NCBI GenBank assembly: GCA_025060505.1 | Contig: JANXBU010000028.1 | Coordinates: 1-9,643 of the forward strand | DNA: 9,643 nt | Source: Candidatus Calescibacterium sp. | GTDB taxonomy: Bacteria > Calescibacteriota > Calescibacteriia > Calescibacteriales > Calescibacteriaceae | Reading direction: 5' to 3' | Shown: positions 3,361 to 9,536 of the stretch, in pieces | How positions within the stretch are numbered: the stretch's first letter is position 1 | Layout of the letters: each line of letters starts with the position of its first letter | Notes under the pieces: generated by a model | The model's database searches: none | Told to the model about the DNA's origin: nothing | Seen by the model: only the letters and a program-made list of their open reading frames with translations | Position numbers and translations under genes: made by a program

Positions 3361-5310
3361 CTATACGAGGATTTCTGGTTGTTGATATAGTTTAAGTCTT
3401 TTTTCTGCCGCTTTTATAATAAGTGCGAGCATTTGGGAATATGATATTTCAACAAGTGAGCACAGCTTTGAGAGATGACCATCCCAGCACCAGCCCGGAT
3501 TTGGATTAACTTCAAGAAGGTATGGATTTCCCTCTTCATCAAGCCGCCAATCGAATCTTGCGTAATCTCTGCAACCGAGTCTCTCAAAAAGTTTTAAAGA
3601 ACACTCTATGATTATTCTTTCTACTTCGTCTGGGAGCTCAGCTTTTATTGTTCGTAGGTTCCAGTATGGAGAGTCCGGAAGCCATTTCGCTTCATATCCG
3701 CAGATTCTTGGTAGTCCCTCTGGTAAGTCTGTGTAATCTTCTTCACCAATGGGTAGAACTATGTAGTCGCTGGGAGGATTTCCTATGATTCCGAGTGTGA
3801 GGTCTTTTCCGGGTAGAAATTTCTCTACCAATATTGGTTTTTCGTATCCGAACTTATTCCTGACTTCTGATATTTGTGCTGTTAGTTCCTCAACCGAGTA
3901 GACAACAGATTTTGCTGTTATACCGAACGATGAATCTCCGAAATTCGGTTTGACTATTGCTGGGAATGAAAATGGTATCTCATATATTATGTCTGAGGGT
4001 TTTATGAAGAAAGCTGGTGGAACAGGTATTCCCATTTCTTTTGCTATACCTCTGACCAATGATTTGTCATAGCAGAATGATAAGCACTGCGGTCCAGCTC
4101 CCGTATATGGTATTCCGAGAGTTTCAAGTAGGGCTGGGATGTGAAGTTCTTTTGTTGGATCGTTTCCAAAACCCTCATCGCATAGATTCAGAACAAGGTC
4201 AACTTTTCCTTTGTTCTTTATTTCTCTTAGTGTGTCTATCAATTTATCGTGGTCTGAGACATAATAGAAGTTATATTCTTTGATTTCATTAAGGGCTTCT
4301 TTGAGTTTGTTTATAGTGTATATATCGTCTTCATCAAATGTTCCGCCGGGTTTTATGGGATCTTTCTTTTTAGGGTCGCCGAGTATAACAACAATGTTTT
4401 TAAGTGTTGAGGAATGACCGTTTGTTTTCGTCCATGATTTGTTTGCTTTTGCGGTTATGAAGAATCTTCTTTCCATCATTCCAAGATCCTGACCTCTTGT
4501 TGAGAGACCCTGTATTCTTTCGATGTCTATTTCTGTAAAGCCAATTTCTTCAAGCATTTCTTTTATTTCATCTGTTGAGTAGAGCCTTTCAGCGTAGAAG
4601 CGGTCTACAAGGATGCCTTTTTCTGAGTGAATTATTACTTCTCTTGATATTATCCTTTTTGAGTCTGAAGATAGAGATCTTTCTCTGCAAACTATGCTTT
4701 TCTTATCTATCCATTCCCATGAGCGTGGTTGGAAGTTTTGTCTCATATACTCACCATCTGTTATATCAATTACAACTTTTCCATCTGGTTTTAGGACTCT
4801 GAAAACTTCTTTCAGAACTCTTTTGTCATCTTCGTCAGACTCAAAGTATCCGAAGCTGTTTCCAAGTATCATCACAACATCAAATTGATCTGATTTGTAT
4901 GGTATTTTTCTTGCGTCGCCCTCCCTAAATTTTACGGGAAGTCCTTCTTTTTTGGCTTGTTTTTTTGCTCTTTCTATAAGGTAGTGAGATCTATCTAGAC
5001 CTTCTACGAAGATGAAACCCCTGCGTGCAAGTTCCAGAGCGTGTCTACCCTGTCCGCAGCACAAGTCAAGTATCATCACATCTTTGCTTATAGATGTTTC
5101 CATTCCGAGCTTCTCAAGTATTTTTGACACCTCCGCTTTAGTTATGTTGTCGTCGCCAACTACATCGCTATCTGTTTTGATGTAAAATGAATCAAATATT
5201 TTTCTCCACCAGTCAGATGGAACATATTGTTCAAGGTTTTCAACGGGTCCGAGTGTGCCTCTTTTGCTACTTTTTTGTAGTGGTATTTGCCTAAAGCTTT
5301 TATCTTTCAC
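3361..5310 (-). CDS. bifunctional fusion: class I SAM-dependent methyltransferase + D-Ala-D-Ala-ligase-like ATP-grasp enzyme
   Basis: Residues 1-290 are a Rossmann methyltransferase: motif I ILDLCCGQGRHALELA (80-95), acidic D106 in EGLDRS, REGDARKIP (129-137) and FDVVMILGNSFGY (143-155). A linker (about 288-303) leads to an ATP-grasp ligase (304-649) of D-Ala-D-Ala-ligase type. Its motifs are GIPYTGAGPQCLSFCYDKSL (399-418), AIVKPNFGDSSFGI (451-464; K454 is the expected ATP contact), ILVEKFLPGKD (493-503) and DYARFDW (582-588), with the Mg ligand region LLEVNPNPGW (598-607; E600 and N602). The ligase half should join a carboxylate to an amine with ATP; the methyltransferase acceptor is unknown. 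A sister enzyme for wall synthesis would be about 310 residues and unfused, so this is probably not the cell's Ddl. The start is GTG with GGGGAGGG ten bases upstream. Both halves keep their key residues. The fusion resembles proteins I recall from other phyla, unverified. Confidence 0.9.
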   Translation of the reverse strand: MKDKSFRQIPLQKSSKRGTLGPVENLEQYVPSDWWRKIFDSFYIKTDSDVVGDDNITKAEVSKILEKLGMETSISKDVMILDLCCGQGRHALELARRGFIFVEGLDRSHYLIERAKKQAKKEGLPVKFREGDARKIPYKSDQFDVVMILGNSFGYFESDEDDKRVLKEVFRVLKPDGKVVIDITDGEYMRQNFQPRSWEWIDKKSIVCRERSLSSDSKRIISREVIIHSEKGILVDRFYAERLYSTDEIKEMLEEIGFTEIDIERIQGLSTRGQDLGMMERRFFITAKANKSWTKTNGHSSTLKNIVVILGDPKKKDPIKPGGTFDEDDIYTINKLKEALNEIKEYNFYYVSDHDKLIDTLREIKNKGKVDLVLNLCDEGFGNDPTKELHIPALLETLGIPYTGAGPQCLSFCYDKSLVRGIAKEMGIPVPPAFFIKPSDIIYEIPFSFPAIVKPNFGDSSFGITAKSVVYSVEELTAQISEVRNKFGYEKPILVEKFLPGKDLTLGIIGNPPSDYIVLPIGEEDYTDLPEGLPRICGYEAKWLPDSPYWNLRTIKAELPDEVERIIIECSLKLFERLGCRDYARFDWRLDEEGNPYLLEVNPNPGWCWDGHLSKLCSLVEISYSQMLALIIKAAEKRLKLYQQPEILV

Positions 5311-6171: not shown

Positions 6172-7567
6172 CTTATGATTTTTTAATAATTCACTATTTC
6201 GTTTGCAAGATTGGATGGAATAAAAATTACAAGTTTGCTGATCTGTTAAATTTGGTAAAATCTTCTTTACGCTTATATAACGAAGAAGATGAAAATCACT
6301 ACGAGCCAAAGGATATAATACAGTGGTACTACGAGTAGGATTTCAAAGATTATAATCGGAATATTTATTCACACATGTTTCATCAACACCCAGCTAAATT
6401 TGTTCCAAGGCTCGCAAGAAAGATATTAAGGGTTTTTTACAGATCAAAGTAGTGTGGTTCTTGATAAATCTATGGCTTCTGGAACCACTTAATTGAGTTG
6501 CACACAGGTTTTCATAGATTCTTTCACAATGTATAATCCTTACTTCCAGAACCACTTAATTGATTGCATACTCTTGAACATAAGAAAAGCAATAGGAATA
6601 GAATTGAATCCATTTGCTTGCTTCATGGCGAAAGTAAAAACTACACCTAGAATCTATTAGGAGAGATTATTTCTCTATGTAAGCAATTGCAGAATATACA
6701 AATTTTACAACATAAAATTCTGGTTTAAGGAAAGACAGATAGAAGATTTATCAAAGCTCAGAGATATAGTTAGGAACTTATCAGACCAAGACGTAAAAGT
6801 TTTTTCTTTTTGTATATGAGTAATGTTGTCAGAAGAGTTTCTTTAACGAATCACAATGGTTTCAGGCTTCATCGCGACAAAAATAAATTAAAAGATGATT
6901 TCAGTCCAGATGTTTGGTGGCATTTTGAGAATGTTTCCCGCAGGAATATATCACTTATGGCTGATTTCTACAGAGTTATCAAAAACAGAAGTGAAAATAA
7001 TACAGGAAGATTCCAGAAAGAAATTAATTGAAGAAAACAGTATTGATTTTATTTTAATATTTCCACCTTATGGAGATTCAAGAACGTAAGTAGCATATGG
7101 TCAGTTTTCTCGTCTGTCGTAGCAATGGATAGAGGAATTTGAAGACAGAAGCATATACAAAATAGATAAAAATCTTTTGTGTGCGAGTCTCTCAGCCGAT
7201 AGAGAAATTCTTGATATTTCTGGAACGTTGAAAACTCAATACAGTCAAATAAGAGATAAAGATAATTGAAGGGCTAAGGAAGTTTTATCTTTTTACTCTG
7301 ATCTGTTTATATCTCTGAAAAACACGTATAGCTACCTGAAAAAAGGCAAATATTTTGTGATAGTTGTGGGTAATAGAACCGTGAAAGGAATATTTCTCAG
7401 AGCAGATCTGATTATAAGCTAGATGATGGAGAATGTTGGTTTTAAAACTGAGAAGATACTTTAATAGGAATATAATTAACAAAAGCTCAAAGAATTCTCC
7501 TACTAACATAAAGGGAGAAGTTTTAAATACAATGTTGAAGGAAATTGTAATTTTTCTTAGGAAATAA
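6161..7567 (+). pseudogene. decayed type II DNA amino-methyltransferase (N4-cytosine/N6-adenine class) of the dead RM system
   Basis: The likely old start ATG 6161 overlaps the endonuclease stop. It reads NSLFRLQDWME with TGA 6176 and TAA 6221, then shifts frame to NYKFADLLNLVKSSLRLYNE. Motifs in order: HPAKFVP (6387-6407, motif X-like); LDKSMASGTT (6460-6489), a mutated LDPFMGSGTT SAM-binding motif I; AIGIELNPFA (6589-6618, motif II); VRRVSLTNHNGFRLHR near 6830-6870; FPPYGDSRT (7060-7086), a mutated SPPY catalytic motif IV; VAYGQFSRLS, then stop TAG 7120; TGA 7267; GNRTVKGI; TAG 7420; TAA 7462; then a +1 shift to RNIINKSSKNSPTNIKG and IVIFLRK ending at TAA 7565-7567. Stops of all three kinds, several frameshifts and mutated catalytic motifs show loss of function. 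The remaining length of about 460 codons is normal for the family. Confidence 0.85.
6476..6568 (+). repeat. imperfect direct repeat (about 27 bp, 67 bp apart) across motif I of the methyltransferase relic
   Basis: 6476-6502 and 6543-6568 match at all but two substitutions and one indel (core GAACCACTTAATTGA in both). The second copy continues into the conserved DCILLN...AIGIELN coding path, while the first continues into about 40 unrelated bases. The segment between them is therefore an insertion bounded by a duplication. Confidence 0.7.
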
Positions 7568-7889
7568 TAATTTTGGGGGAGAAAAGAATTAGTACGAATA
7601 TTTAAAAAATCCGCTTTTCAGTACATCGTTGTAATCATTTAATTCGGTTCTGGCACAGATTTTACATATCTGGTGTGTATCAGGTTTGCAAGAAGGTTAA
7701 AAATTAGTTGTTTGTGTTCTGTTTTTCATTTTAGGTTATTCATATTGAAGTTAGCAAGCTGAATGATTCTCCTTTTCAAGTTCTTTTCAAGTTATAGGGG
7801 GAATCGTTTTGGAAAAATAGATGTTTTTCACAAAACTAATATTGGTATGATTAAATTTTTACAAAAGGCAATTAAGGAGGTGCTTTGTT
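7568..7889. other. intergenic region after the RM relic
   Basis: I see no ORF of substance, RNA gene or riboswitch-like structure here. Notable items are a perfect 11-base tandem repeat CTTTTCAAGTT at 7772-7782 and 7783-7793, and a candidate promoter and ribosome site at the right end, annotated separately. The stretch may include more eroded sequence from the RM locus, but no conserved phrase is readable. Confidence 0.6.
7843..7882 (+). promoter_or_regulatory. candidate promoter and consensus ribosome site for the 19-codon ORF
   Basis: TGGTATGAT (7843-7851) fits an extended -10 (TGn + TATGAT) without a clear -35. AAGGAGGTG (7874-7882) is a full anti-16S match, seven bases before the ATG at 7890. 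It is the best Shine-Dalgarno I see in the window, which argues that something here is translated. Confidence 0.6.
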
Positions 7890-7949
7890 ATGATTATAAA
7901 TTGGAGACCGGCTCCACTCTCAGGCAAGAAGAAAAAAATTAAAAAGTAA
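7890..7949 (+). CDS. 19-residue basic micro-ORF upstream of the radical SAM gene
   Basis: ATG 7890 to TAA 7947-7949 encodes MIINWRPAPLSGKKKKIKK. The case for translation is the consensus AAGGAGGTG at ideal spacing and a candidate extended -10 about 40 bases upstream. The peptide has a hydrophobic/aromatic head (IINW), a WRPAPLSG centre and a lysine-rich tail with six Lys in the last seven residues. I recognise no family. It lies 120 bases ahead of a B12 radical SAM gene on the same strand, so it could be a modified-peptide precursor, a leader peptide controlling the downstream gene, or an independent small basic protein. The Lys run partly reflects A-rich DNA, and a chance ORF after a purine-rich SD-like stretch is not excluded. 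Confidence 0.5.
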   Translation: MIINWRPAPLSGKKKKIKK

Positions 7950-8069: not shown

Positions 8070-9536
8070 ATGAACCTACTACTTATAGCTCCAAGGTGGT
8101 TGAAGGTTTACGGGAGTTTCAAGTATATAACGAAGATTCTGCACTTTGAACCTCCGCTTGGTTTATGTTATCTTGCTGCTTCTTGCGAAAAAGAGGGCAT
8201 AAACACTGATATTCTTGATGCTGAGGCGGAAGGATTTGATGTTGAGGATATAATATCTTATGTGAAAAAGACCAAACCAGATTTCATTGGGATAACAACA
8301 ACAACTCCAACAATAGGTGAGGCAAAGAGGGTAGCGCAGGAGATAAAAAGAAATTTCAGTATTCCCATTATTGTTGGCGGACCGCACGTGACTCTTATTG
8401 GTAAGCAGGTTCTGGAAGAAAATCCGGAATTTGATTTCGCAATGACAAACGACTGTGAGTTCAGACTTCCTATGTTCTTGAAATTGCTGTGGGATGGCAA
8501 AGATATACAAAAAGTAGGCGGACTCATATTCAGAAAAAATGGAGAGGTTATTCAAAATTTTCCTCCTACTGAAGATGTGCAATTTGATAGTATTCCTTTT
8601 CCCGCGAGGGAAAAACTCAAAATTCAAAGATACAAATGGTTTGTTCCTGGAGTTGGTGAGAGAATTGCTACGACTTTCCAGACGTCTCGCGGGTGTCCGT
8701 TGCGATGTATTTTCTGCTCAGAAAGAGTTCTCTATCCGAAAACTAAACTTAGATCTCCGGAAAATGTTATTGAGGAACTCAAGCATATAAAGAAGAACCA
8801 TCCAGAGATACAGCACATAATTTTTATAGATGATACTATAACCCTTGTTCCAAAGAGAGCGTACGAGATATTCAGACTTATGGAGGAGGAGAAACTCGGA
8901 TTCACATTTGAGTGCGAGACGGTTGCAAACAGAATAGATGAGAAGCTCGCAGAGCAGATGGTAAGAGCAGGTCTCAAAAGGATAAACTTTGGAATAGAAA
9001 GCGGCGATCCGCAGATTCTCAAAATGGTGGGAAAAGGAACGAATATTGATGATATAAAGAAAGCTTACAAGATTGTTAAGTCATTGGGAGTGGAAACGAG
9101 AGGTTCTGTTATAATAGGCTTGCCATACGAAAATTTAAAAACTATAGCAAGAACTATATTTTTCATCACTTCTCTTAAAGAACTTGATTTTGCATATATA
9201 AACATAGCGACTCCGTATCCCGGAACTGTTTTGAGAGATATGATACTTGGAGGCGAGGGAGGTTCAAAACTTTATTATTCTGGATATGATATGAAAAGGT
9301 ACGGTTCAGCGGTAGTAGGTGTCGGAAAGCTCAAACCAAATCATCTTGTTAAGATTCAGAAGCTTGCTGTTCTTTTGTTTTATATGAGGCCAAGAAGAAT
9401 AATGCATATTATAAAGTCAAGGGGATTTGGTTTTGCGTTTCGTCTTCTTTTAGGTTTTATGCTTGGAAATTTTCTTGATCTTTTTCAGAGAACGAGTTCT
9501 AACAATGGGCACATCAGCAGGGTAGCGGGGGGATAG
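8070..9536 (+). CDS. B12-binding-domain radical SAM enzyme
   Basis: Cytosolic iron-sulfur enzyme that cleaves SAM to a radical, probably with cobalamin as methyl carrier. Residues 1-145 form the B12-binding Rossmann domain: IAPRW (6-10), FEPPLGLCYLAASCEKEG (26-43), DFIGITTTTPT (71-81) and IIVGGPHVT (100-108). It lacks DxHxxG, as is usual in this class. The radical SAM barrel carries CxxxCxxC as C209, C213 and C216 (TSRGCPLRCIFC), then FIDDTITL (252-259), RINFGIESGD (304-313) and GSVIIGLPYE (345-354). A C-terminal region (about 420-475) has the FYMRPRRIMHIIKS and FGFAFRLLLGFML features common at the end of B12 radical SAM proteins. The substrate cannot be told; relatives methylate lipids, peptides, tetrapyrroles and antibiotics. 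The ATG at 8070 gives the expected N-terminus (TGA in frame at 8034-8036) but has no Shine-Dalgarno. Length is typical. Confidence 0.92.
   Translation: MNLLLIAPRWLKVYGSFKYITKILHFEPPLGLCYLAASCEKEGINTDILDAEAEGFDVEDIISYVKKTKPDFIGITTTTPTIGEAKRVAQEIKRNFSIPIIVGGPHVTLIGKQVLEENPEFDFAMTNDCEFRLPMFLKLLWDGKDIQKVGGLIFRKNGEVIQNFPPTEDVQFDSIPFPAREKLKIQRYKWFVPGVGERIATTFQTSRGCPLRCIFCSERVLYPKTKLRSPENVIEELKHIKKNHPEIQHIIFIDDTITLVPKRAYEIFRLMEEEKLGFTFECETVANRIDEKLAEQMVRAGLKRINFGIESGDPQILKMVGKGTNIDDIKKAYKIVKSLGVETRGSVIIGLPYENLKTIARTIFFITSLKELDFAYINIATPYPGTVLRDMILGGEGGSKLYYSGYDMKRYGSAVVGVGKLKPNHLVKIQKLAVLLFYMRPRRIMHIIKSRGFGFAFRLLLGFMLGNFLDLFQRTSSNNGHISRVAGG

Follow-up and report, generated by a model that had tools for sequence, protein, structure and literature searches.

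A probable conserved microprotein gene, with an invariant WRPAP core and a basic tail, in the family of Candidatus Calescibacterium

Introduction

An open reading frame of 19 codons in a genome of Candidatus Calescibacterium sp. raises the question of whether so short a frame encodes a peptide at all and, if it does, whether that peptide serves the radical SAM gene beside it or acts on its own account. A preliminary description of the window (the whole stretch of DNA analysed here, 9,643 nucleotides) had put forward several readings of the frame: a precursor of a modified peptide, a leader peptide, conceivably a lysine-sensing one, or an overlooked small basic protein. We examined the locus alongside a phylum sample of five genomes, all of one family (the window's own genome, G000, and four others, G001–G004), with micro-ORF backgrounds taken from 1.33 Mb of stretches sampled from three genomes.

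Results

A micro-ORF with a strong ribosome-binding site

The frame runs from ATG 7890 to TAA 7947–7949, with 19 codons and six lysines near the C-terminal end, just as had been described (Table 1). Its Shine-Dalgarno sequence (SD), TAAGGAGGTG, contains a GGAGG whose end lies 9 nt from the ATG, and it is indeed the best in the window: 10 exact bases, against six for the next micro-ORFs and 0, 4, 5 and 6 for the large genes. Across 340 kb of the same genome (contig C27), at least nine exact SD bases precede 3 of 216 genes and 1 of ~13,600 micro-ORFs. A 10-base SD stands before two of the 1,124 intergenic ATG micro-ORFs (14–40 aa) in the 1.33 Mb background, where the WRPAP micro-ORF is the sole basic one and where none of the others with at least seven SD matches is as basic as its peptide. 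The second such micro-ORF (G000 contig C20, position 10042, + strand) reads MLWVDKTQLSLLETW and is non-basic.

On contig C27, 124 of the 216 large genes have no SD; it is against this background that the SD of the micro-ORF is exceptional and, with the signal absent from the majority of these genes, SD-independent or leaderless initiation is perhaps common in the phylum. Judged by duplex energy (−12.4 kcal/mol, a value equalled or bettered by 15 of 226 genes), the window SD is strong, neither extreme nor unique. The extended −10 element proposed in the preliminary description is present (TGGTATGAT), but a −35 to go with it is unrecognisable and a scan for promoters around the micro-ORF reported nothing on the + strand; we therefore regard the promoter as plausible rather than established.

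Table 1. Window coordinates of the micro-ORF, its candidate signals and the gene that follows it.
Feature	Position	Strand	Remarks
Possible extended −10, TGGTATGAT	7843..7851	+	Read from sequence; 5/6 match, weak
Shine-Dalgarno, TAAGGAGGTG	7873..7882	+	Exact 10-base match to the anti-SD complement
Micro-ORF, probable microprotein gene	7890..7949	+	MIINWRPAPLSGKKKKIKK then stop, 19 aa; homologues in G002 and G003; flanks unconserved
Codons of the invariant core W-R-P-A-P	7902..7916	+	Unchanged as a peptide across three genera; nucleotides vary at three sites, each a third codon position
Codons of the basic tail KKKKIKK	7926..7946	+	Tail basic in 3/3 copies
Neighbouring B12-binding radical SAM gene	8070..9536	+	Pfam B12-binding and Radical_SAM; BchE/HpnJ-like, below every curated cut-off

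Homologues in two further genera

A tblastn search with the 19-mer in 60 genomes gave, as its best non-self match, a copy in G002 (64% identity over 14 aa, E 0.057; the runner-up had E 0.445). This copy, MKCNWRPAPVPKKKKGKK, belongs to a different genus and is complete in itself: an in-frame ATG behind a strong purine SD (GAAAGGGGGGAACTGGGAT, duplex energy −15.9 kcal/mol) and a stop codon. Pattern searching found a third copy, MMVEKIHTGWRPAPPVRKRKKKNK, in G003 (bacterium HR19), which has no SD and an uncertain start; a 10-of-12 promoter match stops seven bases short of its ATG, so that the HR19 peptide is perhaps translated from a leaderless message. A model trained on the first two copies ranks HR19 first among the non-training matches, with an E of just 0.16 in 0.4 Mb, and we therefore base the HR19 assignment on its exact WRPAP-plus-tail pattern.

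The same peptide is thus found in two of the four other phylum genomes and in three genera in all. The three copies are 18–24 residues long and hold 7–9 lysines and arginines and 0–1 acidic residues; the tail reads KKKKIKK in the window and KKKKGKK and RKRKKKNK in the other two, with lysine exchanged for arginine in HR19. In G001 and G004 (genus of HR19; assemblies ~85% complete) no copy was detected, and the weaker motifs there are in-gene or chance matches only.

Beyond the family our searches yielded no homologue. The pattern TGGAGNCCNGCNCC..K4, which covers the AGN-arginine form, occurs at 12 places in ~85,000 species genomes; two of these are the homologues, and the remaining ten, when read in frame, give no start-to-stop micro-ORF and are attributed to chance. 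The CGN-arginine form was scanned within 386 genomes only. A profile search of these 386 returned just weak matches outside the family, six of them, among the 381 further genomes, being judged chance in frame; viral contigs gave one match, also chance, and phages and plasmids none. Nothing related to the peptide turned up in Pfam, NCBIfam, the PDB sequences or the searchable literature either. As far as its sequence goes, WRPAP with a basic tail is a separate family, lineage-restricted and previously unannotated; the suggestion of an overlooked small basic protein has gained two homologues from other genera in which WRPAP is invariant and the basic tail is kept.

Conservation follows the reading frame

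Among the three genera the 15-nt core differs at three sites, which fall at codon positions 3, 3 and 3 and are all synonymous; random placement would put all three at third positions with a probability of 10/455 = 0.022. The preliminary description had named synonymous-biased substitution as a check on the frame, and it is this that we observe. The flanking DNA is unalignable among the copies, so that conservation coincides with the ORF: an in-frame amino-acid sequence is preserved between diverged flanks, as in a small-ORF (smORF) gene. The ribosome-binding site that such a gene would own is strong in G000 and G002 and absent in HR19. A 59-aa ORF that overlaps the micro-ORF (7763–7942) was considered and rejected, as the core substitutions fall at its first codon positions and as the SD and ATG suit the WRPAP frame in two genomes.

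These observations also bear on two ways in which the peptide might be illusory. An RNA or DNA element could be what is conserved, for instance the hairpin TGGAG-ACCGG-CTCCA at 7902–7916; its 5-bp stem is present in the window, where it registered as terminator-like on the − strand, and the core DNA of G000 and G002 is almost identical. The stem, however, is lost in the relatives (CGCCA in G002, CTCCT in HR19), the core changes keep to synonymous third positions and the tail codons differ yet leave the tail basic, and we consider such an element very unlikely. The alternative of a chance ORF with coincidental likenesses in other genomes draws on the shortness of the peptides, the low complexity of the tail and the two family genomes that have no copy; set against it are a chance rate of ~1e-4 pattern matches per genome, compared with two of four other phylum genomes positive (each copy in an intergenic micro-ORF), and an SD that is exceptional in the window and strong in G002, and we find coincidence barely credible. 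The micro-ORF is, with high probability, a real conserved microprotein gene.

Genomic surroundings of the three copies

The placement of the frame upstream of a B12 radical SAM gene holds (8070–9536): the peptide gene ends 120 nt before it on the same strand, and the radical SAM gene itself has no good SD. The position of the peptide gene differs in each of the three genera. In G002 a divergent cyclase/TPR gene lies upstream and a convergent gene follows, its stop 5 nt from the peptide stop; there is no B12-type radical SAM gene within 9 kb of the peptide, and a SPASM-type gene 6.2 kb away is the sole radical SAM match in 360 kb. In HR19 a methyltransferase gene lies upstream and a convergent B12 radical SAM gene 51 nt past the stop, the copy sitting inside a cluster of three B12 radical SAM genes plus the methyltransferase.

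Genes of this kind are sparse: 1.33 Mb contained 18 radical SAM-like matches, almost all of them grouped in a few clusters; contig C27 holds, in its 340 kb, one CxxxCxxC ORF and otherwise no radical SAM gene, and an estimated ~7% of the sampled sequence is no farther than 6.2 kb from a match. The copies are nearer to radical SAM genes than expected; yet enzyme type, order and orientation differ. A link to B12 radical SAM enzymes may therefore exist, two of the three copies adjoining such sparse genes and the third lying 6 kb from a SPASM-type one. The neighbouring enzymes are non-orthologous (25–29% identity), and the NCBIfam families nearest to them are BchE/HpnJ-type, all far below cut-off. 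Membrane and glycosyltransferase-like genes occur in the clusters of G000 and HR19 along with genes for myo-inositol-phosphate synthase, a content that points to lipid or surface chemistry; as the clusters resemble lipid/surface-glycan loci, a common location in accessory regions explains the proximity adequately.

Several other features of these regions deserve record. On G000 contig C18 (40–59 kb; L143 and its neighbours) a 20-kb stretch carries seven B12 radical SAM genes with polytopic membrane genes and glycosyltransferase-like ones set among them, possibly for lipid or surface-glycan chemistry, and this cluster is partly orthologous to that of HR19 (56% identity for one pair). Within the window, positions 6490–7470 hold successive short frames in shifting registers that resemble a decayed DNA methylase (ELNPFACFMAKVKT, DFILIFPPYGDSRT, KGKYFVIVVGNRTVKG); with the methylase-like frames broken across registers, the stretch that precedes the peptide gene has the look of a pseudogene region. 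Positions 3361–5310 (− strand) encode a class I methyltransferase fused to a D-Ala-D-Ala ligase-like ATP-grasp domain, an unusual pairing. Positions 3–440 encode the C-terminal portion of a protein that bears GIQKGIKEGIQKG-type repeats and a weak Yae1_N match; such repeats we take to be characteristic of Rpn/PD-(D/E)XK transposase-like nucleases.

Possible ties to the adjacent gene

Two readings tie the peptide to its neighbour. Were it a cis-acting leader, ribosome stalling or lysine sensing within it would control the downstream radical SAM gene, a notion encouraged by the shared strand, the 120-nt interval and the poor SD of that gene. Poly-lysine and proline-rich stretches can slow ribosomes. 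Nevertheless, the peptide is kept in G002 and HR19, where no co-directional gene follows; because the next downstream gene is convergent in both relatives, a leader or lysine attenuator is unlikely on that ground. In the window region, moreover, there is no + strand terminator after the micro-ORF, no antiterminator, no match to a known RNA family in Rfam and an ordinary regional fold (z = −1.15), the motif is RPAP where known arrest peptides have RAPP (PMC10951233), and HR19 has exchanged lysine for arginine in the tail. Neither the leader nor its lysine-sensing variant, both raised in the preliminary description, finds support here, and we hold a cis-acting leader to be very unlikely indeed. 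Were the peptide instead a RiPP-like precursor, B12 radical SAM enzymes would methylate or cross-link WRPAP residues, with the lysine tail as a recognition follower. Such genes beside two of three copies (in HR19 a cluster of them with a methyltransferase), a third copy lying 6.2 kb from the one radical SAM match detected in 360 kb and the scarcity of these genes elsewhere, as on contig C27, speak for it. Set against this, no single orthologous maturase co-occurs with the peptide: the genes adjacent in two of three genomes encode different enzymes, spacing and orientation vary, the window enzyme has no match at E ≤ 1e-60 in the four relatives (G001–G004), and G002 lacks a B12-type gene nearby. 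The nearest curated families are of BchE/HpnJ type, the contents of the clusters hint at lipid or surface chemistry, and neither a transporter nor a protease lies beside the peptide. A comparable ORF beside homologous radical SAM genes, which the preliminary description had proposed looking for, did not appear when the flanks of distant homologues of the window enzyme in other phyla were scanned. A precursor for the adjacent enzyme as such loses ground with the lack of a match to that enzyme at this threshold (E ≤ 1e-60) in the relatives, while the presence of the HR19 copy inside another B12 radical SAM cluster keeps the wider idea alive; we rate a RiPP-like precursor unlikely, and still less likely the variant in which WRPAP peptides are minimal leaderless substrates of these enzymes, in trans from enzyme clusters, the lysine tail being the recognition element. 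On either formulation, the peptide is improbable as a B12 radical SAM substrate; were it one, a little-known bacterial phylum would have a peptide-modification system confined to itself.

Discussion

The unrelated genomic positions of the copies lead us to favour a free-standing microprotein over a leader of the adjacent enzyme gene, and we give about an even chance to a basic microprotein that acts in trans on a polyanion, a role suggested by its composition. All copies share an apparent architecture of a short N-terminus, the invariant WRPAP and a lysine/arginine tail that runs up to the stop codon. Translation would be efficient, from a short transcript belonging to the peptide gene itself. 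Its polycationic tail, with 7–9 basic residues and at most one acidic, suggests polyanion binding and might hold the peptide to rRNA or the ribosome (the most likely target), or else to nucleic acid or anionic membrane lipid; the invariance of WRPAP suggests a specific contact, perhaps through tryptophan stacking, the arginine and the rigid prolines. With two genomes of the same family having no detectable copy, the peptide would be accessory and non-essential, and so patchy a distribution speaks against a ribosomal protein of the essential kind.

Conservation can thus reveal a gene of 18–24 residues even where a phylum is uncultured, and a defined short motif is available for new genomes: WRPAP followed by a basic tail, or TGGMGNCCNGCNCC and then a lysine-rich stretch and a stop. 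If the peptide is a ribosome binder or a B12 radical SAM substrate, it would be a very small representative of either class.

Four known systems invite comparison. The ribosomal protein bTHX (TIGR04560) is, like the WRPAP peptide, tiny and very basic and contains W-R and a lysine tail; we rejected the identification, as TIGR04560 had no match over cut-off in the five genomes and the peptide was not among its matches. RiPP precursors with B12 radical SAM maturases resemble it in that a short peptide gene adjoins such a gene in two of three genomes, whereas the WRPAP loci have no orthologous maturase, fixed order, transporter or protease, and their maturase matches fall far below cut-offs. RAPP-type arrest peptides (PMC10951233, PMC10987492) likewise place arginine, alanine and proline in a short translated ORF; the WRPAP order, however, is R-P-A-P, followed by 8–10 residues that include the basic tail, the downstream neighbours are not the localisation genes (Sec/YidC) of those systems and are convergent in two genomes, and we rejected this class for want of a C-terminal RAPP-like motif upstream of a localisation gene. 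The closest likeness is to the bacterial smORF microproteins (PMC11188072, PMC11364881), which are, like the WRPAP gene, short intergenic ORFs with their own ribosome-binding site, lineage-restricted and unannotated. The WRPAP family is distinct in sequence from those catalogued, its 18–24 aa lying at the catalogues' low end, and the gene is, on the evidence of its sequence, that of a lineage-restricted smORF microprotein.
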